Notes under the pieces: generated by a model
Database searches by the model: none
The model's input: only the letters and a program-made list of their open reading frames with translations
What the model was told of the DNA's origin: nothing
Made by a program: the position numbers and the translations under genes
From: Acidovorax sp. T1
GTDB lineage: Bacteria; Pseudomonadota; Gammaproteobacteria; Burkholderiales; Burkholderiaceae_C
Length of the DNA stretch: 64,000 nucleotides
Reading direction: 5' to 3'
Assembly: GCF_002176815.1 (NCBI RefSeq)
Contig: NZ_CP021648.1
Location: 930,001 to 994,000, forward strand
Shown here: positions 7,888-21,368 of the stretch, in pieces
Layout of the letters: each line of letters starts with the position of its first letter
Numbering within the stretch: position 1 is the first letter of the stretch

Positions 7888-7940
7888 GGTGGGGGAGTTT
7901 GAGGTGGCCATAGACGGGGGAATTTGGGTGGCCATCAGGG
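7888..7940. repeat. IS21-family right terminal region
   Basis: Two tandem GGGGGA(A/G)TTTG...GGTGGCCAT motifs lie here and mirror the left end as inverted repeats; the outermost bases read CATCAGGG before the target duplication. Confidence 0.75.
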
Positions 7941-7946
7941 GTTCGC
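7941..7946. repeat. Target-site duplication, right copy (IS21 family)
   Basis: An exact second copy of GTTCGC (see 5329-5334), after which the N-terminal half of the ParB-like gene begins on the minus strand. Confidence 0.9.
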
Positions 7947-8569
7947 GAAAGCAGTGGTGAAGTTGTTCTGGCCAGACATCAACTCGGCCGCTTCAATTTG
8001 CCTGATGGGCTTCATGCGACGCAGTATCGTGAATGTCTTGGCTGGACAGGGTTTGTCTTGCAACTGTTCAATGACCTCCGGGCAAATGCCATCCAGCAGT
8101 CGGAAGTGATTCTTGATCGTTGACGGTGAGAGATGCAGTGTCTTTCCTAGTCGCTCAGCAGAGACGCCGTGTTCCATGGCTTTGACGATCATCTTGTGTG
8201 CCTGGACAACCGTCATTCGATTGATACGCTTGTTATAGGTGTATGTGTCGCCATCGGTTGCAATCAGGCAAGCCACCTCAGTGGCTCCCAAAGCCTTCAG
8301 TGCTTCAATGCGCAGATGCCCATCCATCACGAAGTAATGACTTTTGTGACTCGGGTCGGGAAAAACTACTGGGGGTTCGACCAAGCCGACGTCTTTCACT
8401 GATGACAGGATCTGCTGGAAGGTGATGCTGTCCTTGACGCGGGGCCGTAGTGTTTTAAGGTAGATGAGATTCGGCAGGGGAATCACCACGCAATCTTTCA
8501 AGAAGGCGGCTTTGGTTTTATCCGATGGAGCGGTAGATTGCCCATCGTCGGCATCGTTGTCCCTCTTGC

Positions 8570-9457
8570 TCATGGTCTGTCTCCAGCCGCCATACGATCT
8601 TTGATGAGCTTCGGAATTGAGTCCATTTTCTCGGCGCGAAGAATGGAAACAAAGCCGTTATCTGCAAATAGCTCCTTCAACGCTTGGGTCGCAAAAATCA
8701 ACTTGTCGTGCGTGAAATCGGCCTTTTTTGCAGCGAGCCGCTGGTTTTCCGCCTCGCGCTCGAAGATACGCCTCAGTTCAAGTGGGGTTAGTTTCTTGCG
8801 TTTGGCAGTTCTCCCAAGCGGGGCATTGCCAACCAACTTGCTGCGATTTGCTCTCTGTTCTAGAAGTCGGCGTAGTGTGGATAGCTTCTTGCCGCGAAAC
8901 CCCTGTTCGTAGGCGTCGGAAAGCAGGTCTTGAATTTCGCTCGCACTGCTCCTGGCAATGGTCGTTGCCATGCTCAGAGGAATTGCCCCATTCTCTACTG
9001 CAACAAGCAGCTTCTCTTCTCCGCGGTGCAGTAGGCCGCTGATCATGTTCACCCAGGATGGGGTAACGCCAATTTTCTGCGCTATCTGGGTGTCGTTGAA
9101 GCCGCGTTCTTTGAGGCTGCCCACTTCGCGCATCAGGTCGATAGGACGATGCTGCCGTCGGGCAATGTTTTCAACCAGACTCATCACCAAGCAGTCGTCC
9201 TCTGGAGCGTCTGTCACAAATGCAGGAATTTCCCCCTGGTTCAGCATCTGAAAAGCCTCTAGGCGGCCTTGGCCGCATATCAGGTCGTATCGACACGAAC
9301 CATCTTTCAGCGCTCGACGGCTTACCTTTATTGGCCGCTTGAGGCCGACACAGCGAATGTTCTCCACGATAGCCTCGTGCTGCCGTTTGTTGCGTGTACG
9401 AGGGTTGAGGACGTCAACCAAATTGATGGGAATCATCTCCACGCTTTGATGAGTCAT
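8570..9457 (-). CDS. ParB/RepB-family DNA-binding protein of the recombinase module
   Basis: This 295-residue protein has the ParB/Srx N-terminal domain: a start motif setting out NLVDVLNPRTRNKR, the nucleotide-pocket-like segment LICGQGRLEAFQML and the VENIARRQHRP box (about residues 92-103), followed by an HTH (NDTQIAQKIGVTPSWVNMISGLLHRG). The C-terminal third is helical and charged. It is the middle gene of a tightly coupled set: its ATG overlaps the recombinase stop (9454-9457) and its stop overlaps the start of the second ParB-like gene. In plasmids such proteins bind centromere sites. Here no ParA ATPase accompanies it, so a role in recombination or its control is more likely than segregation; that is an inference. 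Confidence 0.8.
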   Translation of the reverse strand: MTHQSVEMIPINLVDVLNPRTRNKRQHEAIVENIRCVGLKRPIKVSRRALKDGSCRYDLICGQGRLEAFQMLNQGEIPAFVTDAPEDDCLVMSLVENIARRQHRPIDLMREVGSLKERGFNDTQIAQKIGVTPSWVNMISGLLHRGEEKLLVAVENGAIPLSMATTIARSSASEIQDLLSDAYEQGFRGKKLSTLRRLLEQRANRSKLVGNAPLGRTAKRKKLTPLELRRIFEREAENQRLAAKKADFTHDKLIFATQALKELFADNGFVSILRAEKMDSIPKLIKDRMAAGDRP

Positions 9458-11019
9458 GCTGCGTCCTTCAGGCTGTATCTGGCAGCCATCTCGTTCAGGA
9501 TGTCTAGAGTGTCGAACCTGTAGCTGTCAATCAGCCCATAGTTCTCTTCGCTGAGCCTCTCAGGCCATGCGCCAGTGTCGATGCGTGGAATAAGGTAGTA
9601 GTCCCTGACATTTGTGTTCGAGCTGTCCATCCGTACCGCAATGGTGACGTCGGGCTCCAGACTGGTATCGAAGCGGACCCGCCAACGCAGTGTTCCAACT
9701 GGCGTTGTTTGGCATCTTGCAATGACCAAGGAGACGGTCCATTCCCCATTTATGGTGAGTAAATCAGTGCCTGCATCGCGATGAACATCAGCGTTGACTT
9801 CATGCAGTCGCTGGATGATCTGGCCCACCAAATCGGGGCGTTGCTTTCTAAGTGCTCGATTGATTTCCAGATAGCGGTAGTCCCGATCAGGGTGAAATCC
9901 GACCAATGCGTAAGCGGTGATCAGTCCGCCAAATCGCTCCTGATAGGCAGAACTAGAGGGCATGTCCTCCTGCTCGTCGATGATCAGGCCTGACAACGTA
10001 CCAGCCCGTGTCAGTAGCTCGCGAAGGAGCGCCAGCATCTGCGAATCATCGAGTCGATGCGAGCGCGCCACAATGATCTCGCGCGCTCTCTCGAATAGAG
10101 ATGCCGAGATGATCCCCTCGAAGGCGCCGTCGCAACGAATCCATAGTTCGGGCGCATTCCGAACTCGCACTTGTTTCAGCTTGAATGACCGACGGTTGTA
10201 GACGTTGTTGCCGATGTATTTTTCGTTAGTCAGGATTTGGTGGACGGTGCCACGTGTCCATGCCTTTCCCAGGTCCGTGAGCAGACCTTCGGCATTGAGT
10301 GCACTGGCGATCTCCCGCTCCGGTTTACCAATCTCAATGAAGTCGTGATAGATGCGATGCACCACGGAAACTTCTTCGGGCGGGCCACGCACCAGGATCA
10401 CGCGATCCGTCTGAATACTCTTGTGCTCCCCTGATTGGAGCTGCCCCTTCGACTCGCGTTGCTCGTTGATCAATTCACGGCGTAAACCATAGCCAGGGAT
10501 TCCCCCTTGATAAAAACCTCGTCCGGCGAGATTGCACTGGCCAATGAAGACTTTCGTGGATAGCACTCGGCTGAACTCACCATCCATGGACCGCTTGAAG
10601 TTTTTGAAAACGGCGGCCATTGGTGTCCCATCGTTATCGAAGGGTTCCGCGCAATAGGAGACGGGGGCACCAGCTTGGGTGCAGAGATATTCGTAATGCG
10701 CGCTTTCGTCGGTGTCTTGAAATCGACCCCAACGGCTCACGTCATACACAAGGATTCCGCGATACACGGCGTGACGACCCTGTACGTCAATGAGCAATTT
10801 CCGAAACTGTTCACGCCCTCCAACGTTCAAACCGCTCTTACCTTCGTCGGCATAGATTTTTACGACAACCATGCCGTGGGCTTCGGCATACTGATTGATC
10901 GCGAGGGTCTGATTCTCCGTGGAGTACCGTTGATGGTCGGTTGACATGCGCACATACGCAGCCATCGGTATCAGGCCGTGAGTCTCGGTTGTCTCCGCTG
11001 TGGCATTTAGATGGGTCAA
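9454..11019 (-). CDS. Large serine recombinase
   Basis: This 521-residue site-specific recombinase has an N-terminal resolvase domain (AAYVRMSTDHQRYSTENQ; catalytic Ser at about residue 26), the downstream GKSGLNVGGREQFRKLL and VYDVSRWGR motifs of the catalytic fold, and a recombinase domain (GKAWTRGTVHQILTNEKYIG). Length and layout fit large serine integrases, although the usual zinc ribbon with four Cys is not obvious. The TTG start at 11019 is supported by GGGAGG five bases upstream. It heads a three-gene unit with two ParB-like proteins, all with ATGA overlaps. It probably mobilised this segment, but no attachment sites can be identified within the window. Confidence 0.85.
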   Translation of the reverse strand: MTHLNATAETTETHGLIPMAAYVRMSTDHQRYSTENQTLAINQYAEAHGMVVVKIYADEGKSGLNVGGREQFRKLLIDVQGRHAVYRGILVYDVSRWGRFQDTDESAHYEYLCTQAGAPVSYCAEPFDNDGTPMAAVFKNFKRSMDGEFSRVLSTKVFIGQCNLAGRGFYQGGIPGYGLRRELINEQRESKGQLQSGEHKSIQTDRVILVRGPPEEVSVVHRIYHDFIEIGKPEREIASALNAEGLLTDLGKAWTRGTVHQILTNEKYIGNNVYNRRSFKLKQVRVRNAPELWIRCDGAFEGIISASLFERAREIIVARSHRLDDSQMLALLRELLTRAGTLSGLIIDEQEDMPSSSAYQERFGGLITAYALVGFHPDRDYRYLEINRALRKQRPDLVGQIIQRLHEVNADVHRDAGTDLLTINGEWTVSLVIARCQTTPVGTLRWRVRFDTSLEPDVTIAVRMDSSNTNVRDYYLIPRIDTGAWPERLSEENYGLIDSYRFDTLDILNEMAARYSLKDAA

Positions 11020-11183: not shown

Positions 11184-11492
11184 CTACTCTGCCAGCAGTT
11201 TCCGAACCGCCTTGCGCACACTTGGTTCGACCTTGCCGTAGCGAAATAGCAGCTCCGCGATCTCGTCTTCCTCATCGGCATAAAAGTATGCCATCGGAAC
11301 GCCCAGCACTTGGGCCAGCTTGCGCACCGTGAGCAAATCTGGCCGGTGCACGCCCAGCTCATAGCGGTTGATCCGCGCGCTCGCCACGAATTCATCAATC
11401 CCCGCCTCGATCCCCAGCATCTTCTGGGACAGGCCCGCCGCCAGCCTCGCTTGCTTCAGCCTCGCGCCCCACTGTTGATCCGCATCGCTCAT
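11184..11492 (-). CDS. XRE-family transcriptional regulator
   Basis: This is a 102-residue helix-turn-helix protein. The HTH covers roughly residues 10-65: ARLKQARLAAGLSQKMLGIEAG then ARINRYELGVHRPDL and KLAQVLGVPMAYFYADEED. The short C-terminal tail is helical. It has AAGG about ten bases upstream of the start. Two perfect CTACG-N5-CGTAG palindromes lie 17-65 bp upstream, between it and the divergent membrane-protein gene, and two more lie upstream of the flagellin gene. It is the natural candidate for the protein that binds them, probably repressing its own promoter; that link is inferred from position and symmetry. Confidence 0.85.
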   Translation of the reverse strand: MSDADQQWGARLKQARLAAGLSQKMLGIEAGIDEFVASARINRYELGVHRPDLLTVRKLAQVLGVPMAYFYADEEDEIAELLFRYGKVEPSVRKAVRKLLAE

Positions 11493-12610: not shown

Positions 12611-14266
12611 GTGGTGACAATTAACACCAACATTCCCTCGCTGAATGCCCAGCGCTATTTGAGCGCGAACCAAGCAGGGCTTGTGACGACGATGCAGCGC
12701 CTGTCATCGGGCCTGCGCGTCAACAGCGCCAGGGACGACGCGGCAGGACTTGCCATCAGTGAACGCATGCTCACGCAGATCAAGGGCATGGAGGTTGCCA
12801 GGCGAAACGCTAACGATGGAATCTCGCTTGCTCAGGTAGCCGAGGGGGCAATGCAGAAGATGACCGACATCCTGCAACGTGGCCGCGAGTTGGCTGTGCA
12901 GGCAGCAAACGGCACCAATTCCAAGAGCGACCGACAGGCACTATTCGCTGAGTACTCTCAACTGCTGCAAGAGTTTGAGCGCATGTCGCGTACATCAAAC
13001 TTCAATGGGCACAATCTGTTGGATGGCAGCTTCACGTCCCAGGTGTTCCAAGTCGGTGCCAATGCGGGGCAGACCATTGATGCCTCTATCTCCTCCTTGA
13101 AAGAGACCGACATTGGCCATCACCAACTCGACTTTGGAATTTACGCCCAAGGTTCATTGGCTGCGACCGAGTGGACTCAAAAGTTCACAGCAGTAAGTGA
13201 ACAAAACTACGAAGGCAATATTGCCTACATGAATTCGCACCCTATGCCACGTTCAATGGTGATCCGTGGCACCGAAATCCCTGTTGACGTAAATGACGGT
13301 TCGATCAAAGCCTACGCCGACAAGATCAATGCGGCGTCCTTCGATCCCGAGATTATCGCCTACGCGAAGACCACGATGGGCTTTGGTGCAGCACCGCTAC
13401 CAGCAGGTCAGAACCTCACGCTCACCATCGTGGCAGGTGAAGACTACTCGAAGGCCAAAACGGTGAGTTTTCCGTGGGATGGTTCGACGGCTGCCGCTCA
13501 AGCTGCGGTTGAAGCAATCAACGCGGTATCAGCAGAGACGGGAGTACGTGCCGACAACTTGCTGCCTGTCGAAAAATCGACAACTATTCCGATCCCGAAC
13601 TTGACACCCTACTTTCAGCTTGTAAATGACGAGGGTGAAAACCTACATGTCATGAACGTTTCGGGGAACGGTGCGCAGTTGTTGATGCAGCAACGCGGTT
13701 GGAACTCGAACGGTTTCGTCAGCCCTAACGGTTCAATTATCTCAGACATAGTCTACGGAAATCCTATTTCAGATGTTGGAGGTGGGGGTGTGCTTGGCAA
13801 GGACGATGCTTTCGTCATTGGCTCTATGTCGGTCGTTTCGTCCGGCGAGTTCAAAATAAAGGGTGACACCGTAGAGGATTGGGATACTGGTGAAACCTTT
13901 GGACTTGTTGCCACTCCATTTTCGGATTTCCAAGATTCCAAACTCAAACCAATTGAAGATATTTCCTTTGACGATGCGCGTTCGGCAGGCATTGCACTGC
14001 TGACATTTGATGGCGCAATAAATGCAGTGAGTAGCGCAAGGGCTCAACTCGGAGCGGTACAGTCGCGTTTTGAAGCCACGATTGCCAACTTGGATATTGC
14101 ATCGGAAAACACTGCTGCTGCAAAGTCACGTATTGTGGATGCCGACTTTGCACAGGAGACGGCGCAACTGGCACGACATCAAATTTTGCAAAACGCAGGT
14201 ACAGCAATGGTGGCGCAGGCCAATTCCATGCCTGAGCAAGTTTTGACCCTGCTCAAGGGGATCTGA
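12611..14266 (+). CDS. Orphan flagellin
   Basis: This 551-residue protein is a flagellin. The N-terminal D0/D1 part is classical ([59 protein letters not shown]) and the C-terminal D1/D0 part matches ([56 protein letters not shown]). The roughly 300 residues between them form a large surface-exposed D2/D3 region with no motif I recognise. The start is GTG (12611 or 12614) without a good ribosome-binding site, which is unusual for a flagellin. No other flagellar gene is nearby, and the gene is more A+T-rich toward its middle. Two CTACG-N5-CGTAG palindromes upstream tie it to the XRE regulator. It may be an alternative filament subunit acquired with the island. Confidence 0.9.
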
Positions 14267-14774: not shown

Positions 14775-15695
14775 CTAGCCAGCCGCAATCGTTCCACGGC
14801 ACTTCGGATAGGTTGAGCACCCCCAGAATGCATTGCCCGCATTGGCACCCTGTCGAGCGGTACGCAGCGCCATGGCGGCACCGCAACGCGGGCATTCAGG
14901 CTGGGATACTGCCTTGGCGGCGACTGATGGTTCGAGGGCTGCAGTCCTGGCATGGGCTTCTGAGGTACCAGTCGTGCTTGGAGCTTCGCGTTGCGCGGTC
15001 GCTGGTTGGCTTTGCGCCTGCCGTGCTTGTTGAATCAACGCGAAGAGCCCGAGGCCGTCAATGAGTTCAATGTTGCAACCCTGCGCAAAATCTTTGGCAT
15101 CGGCGGTAAAGCGCCCCGAGGTGACAACGAAGCCGCCCGTGGCTCCCTTGGCCGCCATGACGCCATAGAGTTCGCGCACGGTGGTGACACCCACCTTGTA
15201 GGCCTTCCACTGCTTGCACTGCACGAATAATTTCTCGCTGCCCTTGGCGAGTACGAGATCGACGCCGCCATCCGGCCCGCCGCCGCCGATTTCGGTAACG
15301 CGGTATCCCTGCAGACGATAGGCTTCACCGACCAACAGCTCAAATTCCCGCCAGCTCATTCCGTCCAAGGCATCGGCATTACGTGCTTGCACCACATTCG
15401 AGACCAAGGTTTGACGCTGTTTGCGTCGCCAGGCGGAGAGAGCTGCCGCTGCGAGGCAAAGAATCGGCACGATGTACTGACCGGCCGTTGCCAGGCCATG
15501 GATCACGGCCTTTTGCATCATGGCCCCCACCATGGCGCCCCCTTGACCCTGAATGTCGGACGCTTGAATGGGAGTTGCCAGGCGGTGCAGCAGGAAATAG
15601 CTCACCGCAGCGAGCACCACGCAGACCCACCAAGGGAGCATTGCAAGCAGGTCCAGCACATCCTCCAAGGGACTGGTTTTCTTGCGTCTGGCCAT
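14775..15695 (-). CDS. Membrane-anchored Mrr-type restriction endonuclease with zinc ribbon
   Basis: This protein of about 306 residues has two N-terminal transmembrane helices (WWVCVVLAAVSYFLL; IVPILCLAAAALSAW), then an Mrr_cat nuclease domain with GGGGPDGGVDLVLAKG and LFVQCKQWK, the usual D...QxK catalytic layout, and GGFVVTSGRFTADA. A proline/alanine-rich linker leads to a C-terminal topoisomerase-type C4 zinc ribbon (CPRCGAAM then FWGCSTYPKCRG). I chose the start at 15695 because GGGAGG lies just upstream; the longer frame adds 19 unlikely residues. Mrr-like proteins cleave modified DNA. A membrane-bound form could act on incoming DNA, which is an inference. Confidence 0.85.
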   Translation of the reverse strand: MARRKKTSPLEDVLDLLAMLPWWVCVVLAAVSYFLLHRLATPIQASDIQGQGGAMVGAMMQKAVIHGLATAGQYIVPILCLAAAALSAWRRKQRQTLVSNVVQARNADALDGMSWREFELLVGEAYRLQGYRVTEIGGGGPDGGVDLVLAKGSEKLFVQCKQWKAYKVGVTTVRELYGVMAAKGATGGFVVTSGRFTADAKDFAQGCNIELIDGLGLFALIQQARQAQSQPATAQREAPSTTGTSEAHARTAALEPSVAAKAVSQPECPRCGAAMALRTARQGANAGNAFWGCSTYPKCRGTIAAG

Positions 15696-15924
15696 GCTTC
15701 CTCCCGTTGTTGGTGTGGTGTTTGCACTATTTTGGCGCGTGCATTTGAACATGGCTCAAGGCTAGCGTGGGGCAGGCGAAAACTCGGAATGGCTCCAGCA
15801 CACCTGCTTGCTGGGTTGTGAAGGAGCTCTGTGGGCTCGTTGCGAGTATGCGATGCGCGACATCTAGCGACTGGCAGGCAGCGATAGCTGACGTTCACGA
15901 AGCATCAGTAGAACTGAGTAACTC

Positions 15925-15963
15925 TAACGCACTTCTGCGTCAAAATGACGCAGAAGTGCGTTA
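15925..15963. promoter_or_regulatory. Perfect 18-bp-arm palindrome upstream of the restriction-like operon
   Basis: TAACGCACTTCTGCGTCA at 15925-15942 is followed by AAA and then its exact reverse complement at 15946-15963, ending 12 bp before the ATG of the HTH gene. The position fits an operator for an autoregulated HTH protein overlapping the promoter. As RNA it would be a strong hairpin right at the start codon, so translational control is an alternative. Confidence 0.75.
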
Positions 15964-15975
15964 CCATTCACAAAT

Positions 15976-16500
15976 ATGAGTTCCCGCCGCATTACATCTA
16001 CAGACTTGGTGGAAGTGACTGGCTTTTCGCGTCACCGGCTACGGGGCTTTTTAAAAGATCTGCCAGAGTATTCTGACAAAAAAGTCACTGCAAGAGTCGC
16101 GCGTGAGTACAGCCGTCAGGAACTAACGATCATTGCAGTTTGCTGTGAGTTGGAGGATGGTTACGGGTTACGCCGTGAAGTTATTGCTCAACTTGTGCCG
16201 GAAATTCGCAAAGCACTCGGTTTGCTCCGGTCAGTAGCCACCGATGCACTTCTTGTCGTTGGTCTAAATCCGCCTAGCGCTCATTACGTTGATGGCATTT
16301 CAAATTTGAGAAAAGGTACTGTTGTGCCATTGAGTGATATTTTGAATAGGATTGACGTCTACCTATTGGGCGACCAAGCAGTCGGTGTCGATGGTCAGCG
16401 CAATCTTGATCTCGGTTTGCTGCCTATCGTGACGACTCGCCCGACGAAGGTGGCGAAAAATTATCAACAACGACCGCGTTCAAAAAATGCAGCCGGTTGA
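15976..16500 (+). CDS. HTH (MerR-like) protein, first gene of a restriction-like operon
   Basis: A 174-residue protein. The N-terminus (ITSTDLVEVTGFSRHRLRGFL) looks like a MerR-type winged helix-turn-helix, followed by a helical part (REYSRQELTIIAVCCELEDGYG) and an undefined C-terminal half. There is no Shine-Dalgarno sequence; the ATG lies 12 bp after an 18-bp-arm palindrome, so a leaderless message or a structured leader is possible. It overlaps the methylase-like gene by 14 bp. Its base composition is clearly more A+T-rich than the core genes. The likely role is control of the operon, comparable to controller proteins of restriction systems. Confidence 0.65.
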   Translation: MSSRRITSTDLVEVTGFSRHRLRGFLKDLPEYSDKKVTARVAREYSRQELTIIAVCCELEDGYGLRREVIAQLVPEIRKALGLLRSVATDALLVVGLNPPSAHYVDGISNLRKGTVVPLSDILNRIDVYLLGDQAVGVDGQRNLDLGLLPIVTTRPTKVAKNYQQRPRSKNAAG

Positions 16501-19500
16501 CCTTTACGAAGAGCTAAACAAGGCAGGCGTACTGCCCGAAAGTTTGGTTCGCCTTGACGAGGCTGCGACACCCAGACATATCCGCTACCTGGACCTACTT
16601 GGCGGGAGAGACGACAGCGAAACGGTGTTTCCTGACGCGGTAATCGAATCTTCTGGGCAGCCATATCTTTATGTCGTACGTCATGACCGTCTGGGTGATT
16701 CCGGCCATGCTCAAACTCATCTCGCGGGGCTGGTTCGCATTCTTGCTTGCCGTTCGGATGCGCGATTTCTTGCAGTAGTGAAACCCGGTTCAATAGATGT
16801 TTATCCTGTAGGACTCTTTGAAAATGTGCCGGATGCCATGCTGTCGGGTCCGAGTGACAGCAAAAGCGCCGACTTGCGGGGCCTACTTACTGGTGCAACT
16901 TTCGCATCGCATGATATGAACGCCGGGAGTTCAAAAATCGCTAAACAGTGGCTCGAAGCCCTGCTGTTTCGCTTGCTGACTGACGCCGCACGTGGCATCA
17001 AGCTCGTTGCTCCAAAGTTATCGGAACAGCAGGTAATTGCTTTGGTCGGACGCGCTTTGTTTTTTCGCTTTCTCGTTGACCGCCGAATAGTGGTCGAAAT
17101 GGATGCGACAGCCATTGCAAAGAATGTCAATCGACTGGTCGAAATGTTCTCGACACCGGCCAATCTCGTACAAGTGTGTCGCTGGATGGACAGCACATTC
17201 AATGGTGACTTGTTGTCTATCGGTGGCAAGGACTACGAAGCGCTGATAGCAACCATTGGCGATGGGGTGAATGAGGTATGCCGACAACTAGGCAATATCC
17301 AGTATCGCGCCGTTGGCGGTCAATTGCCGCTGGATTGGGGGGGTATAGAATTCCGTCACGTACCCGTCGATATGCTCAGTCAAGTGTATGAAGACTTCGC
17401 TCATGAGTTTGTACCGGATTTGGCACAAGCTACGAGCATTCATTTCACGCCAAGACGGTTGGCTGAAATAGTGCTTGATGGGGCATTCAGCGCAGTGCAG
17501 TCCGCGCAGCCGTATAAAGCGAAGGTTCTTGACCCGGCCGTTGGTGGTGGAGTATTTCTTGTGCTCGCGTTTCGCCGACTTGTTGCCGAACGCTGGCTTG
17601 AAAAGGGCGTACGACCAACACGGGCAGTGATTCGCGAAATATTGATGACGCAGCTCACAGGCTTTGACATTAATCGAGATGCCCTCAACATTACCGCTCT
17701 CAGCTTGTACTTGGCCGCACTTGAACTCGACCCAAGGCCAAGTCCACTGTCCGATCTGAAGTTCCGGAAACTGATCGGCACCGTTTTGCATGCGGTGGAC
17801 CAAGAAGGGCTAGGTAGCAATGATGGCGACTCATTGCTCGGCAGCCTGTCGTCAATCATGCTAAATAGTTTTCGGCATCAATTTGATATCGTCATAGGTA
17901 ACCCACCCTGGACTGGCTTTAAGAGCATGAGTAAAACGGCTCTTAATAAGACGCTGGGTGATTTGATGATGGAGCCAAGTGTCGAATCCAGCCAAGACAA
18001 AATAAATGTAACTGTGCGAGCACGTTATGGATCGCCTGACATCCCGTTCTTACTCGCCGCCACTAGATGGGCCAAACCCAGGGGCGCGCTCGGTTTTGCT
18101 CTACATGCGCGCTTCGCGTTCCAACCCGAGTCATTTGAATTGCGAAGACACGTATTCAAATCGATCCGTATCACTGGGATAATGAACTTCGCAGCCCTAT
18201 CTCAAGATTCGAGACTGTGGCCAAGCAACTCTGCCCCATTTATGCTTTTGGTAGCACGCAATGAGCTACCCGGTAATGGGGACAGTTTTTACTTCATAAG
18301 TCCTAAGTACGAGTCTCAACTTTCAGCTACTGGTCAGTTCCGCATTGACCCGTGTGCTGCGACGCCAATATCGCTTGCCGCAGTGCAGGAAGATCCCTTT
18401 GCGATTCGAGCCATCTACAAGGGCGGGATATTGGGTGCGGACCTCCTAAGGCGTATTCGAAGTGGCAGGGTGATCCCGGTGCGGGAATTTTTATCACGGC
18501 ACTACAATACCGAGTTATCCAATGGATACCAGCTCGGTAAACCTGAAAAACGCACCCGTGACGCGAAGCATCTGATCGGGCTACCCGTGGTCACGACAGA
18601 TATGTCTCCGTTTGGAGTAAGTGAACAAAACGGTGAGCTCTTCCGTTACCCATTTGCTGAATGGCCGCGTGACTCCGGAATATTTAAGAGCCCATTGCTC
18701 TTGCTTCGTGCATCGCCAAAGAGAGATAGACATTTACGTGGTGCATTGTTCTATGAAACCGACGTTGCATACACTAATGCTTTTTTCGGGCTCTCGCTCG
18801 CTGAGCGTCCTGAGCTACGGCCAGTTGCTAACTTGCTGCATGTGCTTTCCTACAGTGATTTACTACTGTACTTTCAGTTACTAACAAGTCCAAAGTTCGG
18901 CGTGGAGCGGAAGTCCAGCTTGCAGGCGGATTTAGAGGACTTTCCACTTGTAAACCCAGAATCAATGTCCATTTCTCAAGTTGCTGCAATCAGAGGCTTG
19001 TCGGACCGCTTGCGAAAGGGCGACCCTTGCTGGAAGCAGGTCGATGAACTTGTATCGGAGCTCTACGGCCTCACGTCATGGGACTGTCAGTTGATTCGCG
19101 ACACGTTGGAGTTTGAGCTTCCTTTTCTCGACAACGCTCAACGTGCGAGTATGCCAACGACCGTTGAATACCGCTCAGCCTTCAGAAATACGTTCAATAT
19201 CCTTGTTAAACCATTCGCAGAAGATAATGCCCCGCCAACTCGCATCGCTGATGTAAATAGTGTTGTGATTGAAGGTTGGCGGCACGTCCACATCGGACGA
19301 ACAGCAGAGCGTGATTTGGGCGCTGCAACTATCTTGGAAAAGGATTCGCGTCAATTGGCCGCATTAGCTGAAAGCTACTGGGCTTCGCGCCTCAATGTGC
19401 GGCTATCTGATGGCAGTGCGGTCGTTGGCTATCTCGATCAACGAAGATATTGGAGCAAAACTCAGGCGCGTTTGTTAGCGCTGGAGTGGCTGCAAGGTGA

Positions 19501-19525
19501 TGTCTCGCTCAGCGAAACGGTTTGA
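16487..19525 (+). CDS. N6-adenine DNA methylase-like protein (type IIG/Eco57I-like)
   Basis: This 1012-residue protein has the gamma-class amino-methyltransferase layout. Motif I is DPAVGGGVFLVLAFRRL (D349), an acidic FDINRDALNITALSLYLAAL follows, and motif IV is FDIVIGNPPWTGF (N472-P-P-W475). The roughly 340 residues before motif I include a charged region (LYVVRHDRLG, RFLAVVKPGSIDVYP) that might be a nuclease-like fold without a complete catalytic signature. The C-terminal 400 residues (LLRIRSGRVIPVREFLSRHYN, YFQLLTSPKFGVERKSS) resemble target-recognition domains of type IIG enzymes. It sits between an HTH gene and a PD-(D/E)xK-like gene with overlaps at both ends. The likely job is site-specific adenine methylation, with self-protection or marking of DNA. 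The specificity is unknown. Confidence 0.8.
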   Translation: MQPVDLYEELNKAGVLPESLVRLDEAATPRHIRYLDLLGGRDDSETVFPDAVIESSGQPYLYVVRHDRLGDSGHAQTHLAGLVRILACRSDARFLAVVKPGSIDVYPVGLFENVPDAMLSGPSDSKSADLRGLLTGATFASHDMNAGSSKIAKQWLEALLFRLLTDAARGIKLVAPKLSEQQVIALVGRALFFRFLVDRRIVVEMDATAIAKNVNRLVEMFSTPANLVQVCRWMDSTFNGDLLSIGGKDYEALIATIGDGVNEVCRQLGNIQYRAVGGQLPLDWGGIEFRHVPVDMLSQVYEDFAHEFVPDLAQATSIHFTPRRLAEIVLDGAFSAVQSAQPYKAKVLDPAVGGGVFLVLAFRRLVAERWLEKGVRPTRAVIREILMTQLTGFDINRDALNITALSLYLAALELDPRPSPLSDLKFRKLIGTVLHAVDQEGLGSNDGDSLLGSLSSIMLNSFRHQFDIVIGNPPWTGFKSMSKTALNKTLGDLMMEPSVESSQDKINVTVRARYGSPDIPFLLAATRWAKPRGALGFALHARFAFQPESFELRRHVFKSIRITGIMNFAALSQDSRLWPSNSAPFMLLVARNELPGNGDSFYFISPKYESQLSATGQFRIDPCAATPISLAAVQEDPFAIRAIYKGGILGADLLRRIRSGRVIPVREFLSRHYNTELSNGYQLGKPEKRTRDAKHLIGLPVVTTDMSPFGVSEQNGELFRYPFAEWPRDSGIFKSPLLLLRASPKRDRHLRGALFYETDVAYTNAFFGLSLAERPELRPVANLLHVLSYSDLLLYFQLLTSPKFGVERKSSLQADLEDFPLVNPESMSISQVAAIRGLSDRLRKGDPCWKQVDELVSELYGLTSWDCQLIRDTLEFELPFLDNAQRASMPTTVEYRSAFRNTFNILVKPFAEDNAPPTRIADVNSVVIEGWRHVHIGRTAERDLGAATILEKDSRQLAALAESYWASRLNVRLSDGSAVVGYLDQRRYWSKTQARLLALEWLQGDVSLSETV

Positions 19526-20268
19526 TAAACGTGTCGTTCTCAAATATCGGCGTCCCGCCCTCATCACTGGCCCCCTATCCCTCATGGGGAATAAAGCTAG
19601 TTAAGGTAGTGGAACAGGCATTAAGTGAGGCATGGCTGCGCCTCCTTCGTGATCATTCGGCGCTGGTTTCTGGAGGCAACGAAGATGCCATCACGAATCA
19701 ATTGATGACCGAACTTGTCGTCTTAAGAAGTATTGAATGCCCAGCTGGATTTCATGCGGGATTATTCGGTATGCCAGTTCGTGACGGAAAAGTACCTAGC
19801 TGGGACGGTAAGTCAATTGATCAGATGCCGGACATAACAATATATCCCGCGATACCTCGTCACAACATCGCTGATCAGCGACATGATGCCTTGTTCTATG
19901 AATGCAAGGTGCTGGATAAAACCCGTGGCTTAAACTTATACAGGTCACAAGGCATAGAACGGTTTACCCAAGGGCGTTACGCATGGCGCATGCCGCACGC
20001 TGGGATGGTGGCGTATGTGCTCGAGAGCTCTGAAATTTCACCCACTACGGCTCTTACCGATTATTTTTCTCATGTCAATAAGGCAGGAAAAACAATAGGT
20101 AGCGAACTCGGAGCATTCATCGCCCCGACCTCGGTGGAGAAGGCCAAAACTGTATATGTATCCGACGTTGCCGAAAGCAAACACTTTCGTACTGTCCCTG
20201 TCTTAAGTGGCAAGATGGGCGTGATATCGCTCAGGCACTTATGGCTAATCGCTACTCCGATTTCTTAG
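19522..20268 (+). CDS. Putative PD-(D/E)xK nuclease, third gene of the restriction-like operon
   Basis: No family name comes to mind, but the 248-residue sequence has the marks of a PD-(D/E)xK nuclease. An N-terminal helix carries a conserved-looking Glu (NEDAITNQLMTELVVLR), then MPDITIYP with D104, DALFYECKVLD with E127 and K129, then a helix and strand (GIERFTQGRYAW, AGMVAYVLES). The spacing between D and ExK is longer than usual because of an inserted loop. The start is either TTG 19522, overlapping the methylase stop, or GTG 19531. Context makes a restriction nuclease the most likely role; the assignment rests on motif spacing and neighbours only. Confidence 0.6.
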   Translation: MINVSFSNIGVPPSSLAPYPSWGIKLVKVVEQALSEAWLRLLRDHSALVSGGNEDAITNQLMTELVVLRSIECPAGFHAGLFGMPVRDGKVPSWDGKSIDQMPDITIYPAIPRHNIADQRHDALFYECKVLDKTRGLNLYRSQGIERFTQGRYAWRMPHAGMVAYVLESSEISPTTALTDYFSHVNKAGKTIGSELGAFIAPTSVEKAKTVYVSDVAESKHFRTVPVLSGKMGVISLRHLWLIATPIS

Positions 20269-20400: not shown

Positions 20401-20673
20401 TCACACCACACACTCCTCGCGATTTTTCCCTTCGATCCATTTCGGCGCTCTCCCTCTGCCGCTCCAGGTCCGCCCTGTCTTTGGATCGCGGTACTTGGCC
20501 TCAACCTTTTTGGCTGCAGGCTTCCACGGAAAGACCTGTTGCGCAGTGAATCCGAACTCGGCTATCAGGGAATGGACGGCATCCAGCGCTTGCTTGGCTT
20601 CAGCCTTGCGCGCGATAGCAATCTGTTGATCCAGCGCGCTTTTCTGCTCCAGCAGTTCTCGGTAGGTACTCAT
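20401..20673 (-). CDS. H-NS-family nucleoid protein, small form
   Basis: This 90-residue protein ends in the H-NS DNA-binding signature: YRDPKTGRTWSGRGRAPKWI, with the basic loop and the Trp-Ser-Gly-Arg-Gly-Arg core. The N-terminal half (YRELLEQKSALDQQIAIARKAEAK) is a short coiled coil for oligomerisation. Betaproteobacterial islands often carry such small H-NS paralogs. It lies between two A+T-rich clusters, which are its likely silencing targets. It is transcribed opposite to its neighbours. Confidence 0.88.
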   Translation of the reverse strand: MSTYRELLEQKSALDQQIAIARKAEAKQALDAVHSLIAEFGFTAQQVFPWKPAAKKVEAKYRDPKTGRTWSGRGRAPKWIEGKNREECVV

Positions 20674-21368
20674 GATTCTTCGTCTGTATTTCCTGTCAAT
20701 CCGACGAGGATAGCGTCAAACGTTGTGGTCTCTTTCTCTCTGCATGAATTTTTCATGGAGTCGCTCGACTGCTGCGAATCATGAACAGAGATCGACAATA
20801 AACCGGCATTTCGCTTCGAGCGTTGATCGCTGATTTGACCCACTCCATAGTGGCGCCAGTACAGTCGCAGCCAACTCTTGCGCAGGATGCGCGCTTGCAG
20901 TATTTGCCGAGCTGAAGGGCTAGCTTGGATAATGTGTCAATTCATATATTGAATATAAGGTGCATTTTGCTGGTTATTTTGATGATATTGCGAATGTGGT
21001 ATAATTATTTCGCGTAAATATTGATTTCGTTGGCTGCATTTTTTGCTGTTGATAATCGAAAAATCAATATCGCCCTTCTTCCTGCCTGCACTCCCAGGCC
21101 TATTTCCCCCGTTTGATTCCACCGAACGCCGTGCCACCACGGCGGCTCGCTTGCGCGCGGCTGTCGCCATGACAGCACGCATGGCGTTGCCGTGGCCGTG
21201 GTCATCGCTGTGGTCGTGGCGGTATGGCGGCGTATCGCGCCAGGGTCTGTAGCGGGAAGGAGCGAGTGCAGTGCCGCGCCGCGCGTGGTTCGGTGCTTGG
21301 CACTCGGCACAGCGCTTTCGTCTTTTCCTTTCACTTCCTTTTCTCTCTTTCTTTTCAGGAGCATTTCC
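20674..21368. other. Long non-coding region with A+T-rich promoter segment and G+C-rich leader
   Basis: No convincing gene in about 700 bp. About 20930-21080 is strongly A+T-rich and includes an extended -10 promoter at 20998-21005. Then comes G+C-rich sequence with short internal repeats (GGCCGTGG/GGTCGTGG type), and finally a pyrimidine-rich tract (about 21305-21358) before the next gene. Confidence 0.6.
20978..21005 (+). promoter_or_regulatory. Extended -10 promoter upstream of the peptidase cluster
   Basis: TATAAT at 21000-21005 is preceded by TGG (extended -10, TGn), with TTTGAT at 20978-20983 at 16-bp spacing as a weak -35. It lies in an A+T-rich patch about 360 bp upstream of the first gene of the cluster, implying a long leader. 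Confidence 0.6.

Follow-up and report, generated by a model that had tools for sequence, protein, structure and literature searches.

In the 64,000-nucleotide stretch of Acidovorax sp. T1 DNA analysed here (the window), three genes, C, M and R, follow one another directly behind a long perfect palindrome, raising the question of whether these genes belong together and what kind of system they may encode. An earlier note, made from the letters alone, had taken them for a modification-restriction or other defence system with a separate nuclease. The features are as follows:

15925-15963, no strand: palindrome TAACGCACTTCTGCGTCA-AAA-TGACGCAGAAGTGCGTTA, a perfect inverted repeat with 18-bp arms around an AAA loop, proposed to be the operator that serves C, M and R
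15976-16500, plus strand: C, MerR-like helix-turn-helix controller, 174 aa
16487-19525, plus strand: M, gamma-class N6-adenine DNA methyltransferase with a built-in target-recognition domain, 1012 aa
19531-20268, plus strand: R, putative small PD-(D/E)xK-like nuclease, 245 aa from the GTG at 19531, or 248 aa from the TTG at 19522

The three open reading frames (174, 1012 and 248 aa) and their order are as the note gave them, and the palindrome lies 12 bp upstream of the ATG of C at 15976. It is single in the window at up to three mismatches, with no matches in 100 shuffles, and a search of the 4.4-Mb genome with its inner 29 bases, three mismatches allowed, hits a single place; a chance origin was rejected on these results. 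As to the overlaps described between the genes, the 14 bp shared by C and M stand, but the 4 bp between M and R probably do not. Aligned relatives of R begin at the GTG at 19531 (MSFSNIG..., compare MSFNLGTPPVG in locus L012), and this is therefore the probable start, which would leave M and R non-overlapping with a 5-bp gap. The operon is also richer in A+T than its surroundings, as had been observed, with a GC content of 0.50-0.51 at 16-21 kb against mostly 0.59-0.71 beyond 21 kb.

Next to the operon, which lies in a lower-GC stretch, is an Mrr-type nuclease gene; a recombinase/RepB cluster is found further upstream. The Mrr-type gene (14775-15752, minus strand) combines an Mrr_cat restriction endonuclease domain with a topoisomerase-like zinc ribbon and is divergent from the operon. 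A serine recombinase with Resolvase and Recombinase domains, followed by two RepB/ParB-like genes in tandem (7935-11019, minus strand), looks, together with an HTH_3 gene at 11184-11492, like a small mobile module. A flagellin gene with a GTG start (12611-14266, plus strand) lies inside the lower-GC stretch, and a small H-NS-like gene (20401-20673) is found on the minus strand directly 3' of the operon. Among 30 genomes of the genus, two relatives match the flanks: their homology breaks off near 15740-15760 and, in one of the two, picks up again near 21060. This suggests that the operon stretch is an accessory insert, although the flank pieces lie on different draft contigs and thus do not amount to an empty site.

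M and R form one unit

M and R are a single unit. Counting R when it lay no more than 1.2 kb after M (mostly less than 100 bp), R followed M in all 64 testable loci where M scored at least 700 bits, a set that includes the window and the same or near-identical sets L011/L022, L019/L071 and L018/L066-L068, and in 26 of 29 testable loci with M at 200-700 bits, the misses being L016, L065 and L099. Three more loci in the first range and four in the second had too little DNA to enter these counts. At 50-200 bits, R followed M in none of 12 loci, all of which are viral contigs (five of them near-copies) with other methylases of M's fold.

A single R query against 300 genomes of the order matched only R itself, and a profile was therefore needed. 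Since this profile was built from 13 of the counted, M-found R sequences, searching with R alone is the more independent test. With up to seven candidates scored per genome, it matched at least 7 of 398 genomes of the phylum and at least 18 of 399 genomes of the family, at 25 distinct places, comprising the window, nine genomes known from the family search with the single M sequence and 15 outside that search; at 25 of 25 places, a frame matching the M profile lies upstream on the same strand. The single M sequence matched 9 of 399 family genomes at E <= 1e-30 and, at this threshold, none of the five same-genus genomes listed.

By their record titles, the best 80 of 214 confirmed loci include members from Pseudomonadota, Acidobacteria, Verrucomicrobia, Planctomycetota and Nitrospinae, and more distant ones from Chloroflexi, Bacteroidales, Oscillibacter and an archaeal MAG; many loci of the genome scan are MAGs. 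IMG/VR gave no match to a single query and 16 loci by profile, namely one close relative (L100), two distant ones (L101 and L102) and otherwise other methylases. On six plasmid loci M is annotated as 'N-6 DNA methylase' and R as 'hypothetical protein'; on L004 M is split over two annotated genes, and on L009 a small gene stands between M and R.

Neighbours shared across 66 loci, of which 40 have over 2.5 kb of sequence on the downstream side, are R, the controllers and minus-strand frames over R, the last judged by position only; the next cluster was present at three loci only, at varying places. A missing third conserved partner was considered and rejected, there being no such shared neighbour over the 66 loci, and the shared unit comprises two or three genes.

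The methylase, the putative nuclease and their proposed mode of action

M carries the DPAVGGG and NPPW motifs previously reported and has the features of a gamma-class methyltransferase with a C-terminal recognition domain; its model is that of an N6-adenine methylase of the PglX/MmeI type that carries a target-recognition domain of its own. A PDB search with the single M sequence gave no matches, and M scored far under the cut-off of the NCBIfam BREX methyltransferase models. Its N-terminal ~150 aa occupy the position of the MmeI nuclease domain, and in an alignment of 45 rows there is no conserved ExK in residues 26-112. This part of M resembles a nuclease domain of the MmeI type that has eroded. 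The window's own genome also holds two MmeI_N proteins (L152, at G000:C2:60157, and one at G000:C1:2159344) and, within a frame of 1313 aa, a further but weak match to M at G000:C1:1634852-1635277 (E 5.4e-6). By eye, the N-termini of the MmeI_N-family proteins L149-L155, L159 and L163 are without the D...ExK of L145-L148.

The PD...ECK pattern that had drawn attention to R is present, with PD at residues 103-104 and ECK at 127-129. Across aligned rows, window included, E54, E127 and K129 are kept in 55 of 55 and D104 in 54 of 55, giving the arrangement E...D...ExK, and R models as PD-(D/E)xK-like, with a modest Z. Members from different phyla align along the whole of R, and several residues beyond the catalytic set are invariant. 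A PDB search with the single R sequence returned one row at chance level, as did a search with the R profile, and the profile had no significant match to MmeI_N or to the N-terminus of M. Weak, scattered Pfam, PADLOC and NCBIfam matches in one or two of 55 R members, including one to a PADLOC 'Endonuclease' effector (E 0.013), were taken as chance. The original reading, of a modification-restriction system with a separate nuclease, is supported.

Passages of Blow et al. 2016 (PMC4752239) describe Type IIG-like systems in which the methyltransferase/TRD and the nuclease are on separate peptides: AchA6III, with a PLD nuclease/translocase; OspHL35III, with a translocase and GIY-YIG; and MexAMORF1192P, with two translocases and HNH. 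C-M-R resembles all three in pairing a methyltransferase/TRD protein with a separate, putative endonuclease, and, as far as those passages describe them, resembles AchA6III and OspHL35III in having an MmeI-like methyltransferase without an N-terminal PD-ExK motif. It differs in that R is small and PD-(D/E)xK-like, where these split Type IIG examples have a translocase and PLD, GIY-YIG or HNH, and in the MerR-like controller of the window's branch. Pfam revealed no helicase or translocase among 15 window proteins, and no shared translocase-type neighbour was seen in the 14 largest clusters of the 66 loci, the clusters being judged without a helicase profile. In MmeI and DrdV (Type IIL/IIG) the nuclease is in the same chain, whereas here it is M that is without a conserved ExK and the nuclease-like protein that has its own gene. 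DnmA-YeeB-YeeC, as described in part of PMC9973331, likewise has an MmeI-like methyltransferase without a nuclease motif and adjoining partner genes, but the partners are a helicase and GIY-YIG, unlike R. C-M-R is of the split Type IIG-like kind, but with no translocase seen, a PD-(D/E)xK-like nuclease and a MerR-like controller.

We consider it probable, though by no means certain, that C-M-R is a split restriction-modification operon of the Type IIG-like kind, compact and without a translocase. With its single target-recognition domain M would recognise one asymmetric site and methylate an adenine in it, and R would supply a PD-(D/E)xK active site and cut DNA with unmethylated sites. The seemingly eroded, nuclease-like N-terminus of M makes it likeliest that R works with M, and in the likeliest mechanism R would dock on M at unmethylated sites rather than act as an independent sequence-specific nuclease; R should need M for site finding and probably two sites for cutting. 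According to the parts of PMC3874165 and PMC4081073 that treat them, enzymes of the MmeI family generally have asymmetric sites in which one strand is methylated, and M should therefore methylate one strand.

An orthodox Type II arrangement, with R a free-standing restriction enzyme recognising the same site and M merely protecting it, is unlikely but has points in its favour. A length of 245 aa fits a Type IIP enzyme, and several VIA rows for R are Type II restriction enzymes. Where the methyltransferase part is 60-80% identical, R and M's recognition domain diverge in step (52.0% and 52.1%, respectively), and this equal divergence would speak against R needing M. In addition, in the otherwise near-identical systems L018 and L074 the DNA of M is 92-100% identical through most of the first part, 67-86% at codons ~465-862 and 95-98% after; the codon ~465-862 tract is a recognition-domain exchange in M. 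In the same pair, identity is 76-89% at R codons ~44-145, and this tract of R, changed along with that of M, would in this one case fit either an R-M interface or a specificity of R's own. Against the orthodox arrangement, M has a single recognition domain like MmeI and PglX, and with sites methylated on one strand a simple nuclease would face unmethylated newly replicated host sites; the invariant non-catalytic residues of R and its alignment along its length across phyla also count against it.

Less probable again is that M acts as discriminator and R as an effector working other than by site-directed cutting, whether in exclusion without cleavage (BREX-like or other) or in abortive infection. 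PglX, which has no N-terminal nuclease domain according to part of PMC11341690, stands beside BREX partners (PglX/BrxX), but no PglZ or other BREX gene was found with Pfam among the 15 window proteins scanned (7.9-24.9 kb). The near-invariance of the catalytic-type residues of R and the limited size of the shared unit also argue against exclusion without cutting, and we retain the split Type IIG-like operon as the preferred reading.

Controllers and the palindrome

C scored 19.1 bits (E 0.0014) against Pfam MerR_1, under the cut-off of 21.6, with a weak HTH_26 match also under cut-off, and its relatives scored 22.6 bits (L017, over the cut-off), 17.4 bits (L028, under it) or gave no match (L050). 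Of the HTH_3 family looked for in a C protein, Pfam gave no match to C. The C-protein-controlled Type II systems (AhdI and others) treated in part of PMC3874152 also have a helix-turn-helix controller preceded by an operator, but they are unlike the present family, in which C is MerR-like and relatives have XRE-like or LexA-like controllers. Profile classes upstream of M at 94 loci, counted when the end of the frame lay within 1 kb, were MerRa at 20 (the window's C among them), MerRb at 16, LexA-like at 11, XRE-like at 10 and none of these at 37. LexA-like repressors precede L032, L039, L041, L047, L055, L056 and L058, and LexA DNA-binding and S24 peptidase domains are over cut-off in 5/5 LexA-like controllers scanned.

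On a quick M tree of 59 of 85 near-full-length proteins (21 distant proteins and five near-copies left out), for which SH-aLRT was the only support measure and long-branch warnings were given, the window groups with L010 as its sister (support 100). Two changes account for the MerRa class on this tree, and 15 for all five controller labels, against a minimum of 4 and a shuffled mean of 33.9. Controllers mostly track the clades of M, with exchanges.

In 16 of 18 MerRa-class loci the pattern CTG[CT]-N10-12-[AG]C[AC]G lies in the 85 bp ahead of C, against 0 of 33 upstream regions of other classes (MerRb 0/12, XRE 0/10, LexA 0/11) and a mean of 0.27, maximum 3, in shuffled MerRa regions; it was drawn from the same MerRa regions in which it was counted, and related loci are not independent. 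The 18 are the 20 MerRa loci minus the duplicate L022 and the partial L029, with L011 and L036 missed by the pattern, and the 12 MerRb regions are the 16 minus four near-copies. The strict form CTGC-N11/12-GCAG occurs at 9 of the 18 MerRa loci and, over 160 bp, at 9/19 MerRa and 1/13 MerRb. Half-sites in the MerRa class are mostly at about -40 to -18 before C, and further up in L010 and L014; a sigma-70-like promoter scan gave no signal over shuffles. We propose that C binds the palindrome just upstream of its own start codon and would thereby control the operon, by repression or activation. In the LexA class, the SOS-box-like CTG-N10-CAG occurs at 5 of 11 loci (shuffle mean 0.37), with sequences such as ATACTGTATATTATAACAGTAT before the controller in L032, L039, L041, L056 and L058.

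Alternatively, the palindrome could work at the RNA level, as a hairpin for attenuation or processing, instead of serving as an operator in DNA, and its RNA fold of -32.5 kcal/mol (z -7.5) would suit this, as would the long arms in relatives (15 bp in L013, L020 and L031; 14 bp in L028; 11 bp in L004 and L012). We hold this to be improbable, given that the half-sites are kept in L005, L011, L021, L033, L035, L036 and L043, where the best arms are 4-7 bp. The palindrome matches no Rfam family, and a known Rfam RNA element was rejected on this basis. Regulation of the RptR type was also set aside, the protein and its TAGCTA sites, as given in part of PMC12255303, being different.

Meaning for restriction systems

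Judged from sequence, the operon very probably encodes two separate enzymes, one that marks DNA and one that cuts it, controlled by a switch that regulates itself. With the same high probability it would be an unlabelled variant, present in several bacterial phyla, of the known restriction systems that act against viruses. No C-M-R-type family in print was found in the open-licence literature, and REBASE may already include genes of this sort among its putative systems. More tentatively, and with somewhat more doubt than confidence, we propose a widespread, so far unlabelled two-protein restriction family: a methylase acting on a lone strand, its own nuclease domain inactivated, would recruit a separate PD-(D/E)xK nuclease with no translocase and under interchangeable controllers. 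In one branch the controller is a complete LexA-like repressor, with an SOS-box-like operator at about half of the loci, and may gate restriction by DNA damage. If true, R would represent a nuclease family that the searched copies of Pfam, NCBIfam and PADLOC do not recognise, and proteins now called 'hypothetical' would become restriction enzymes. The operon would then be a minimal, motor-free natural case in which specificity (M) and cutting (R) are split between proteins, and its exchangeable controllers, the LexA-like ones included, would make it well suited to studying the timing of restriction, both when the system enters a new host and following DNA damage.
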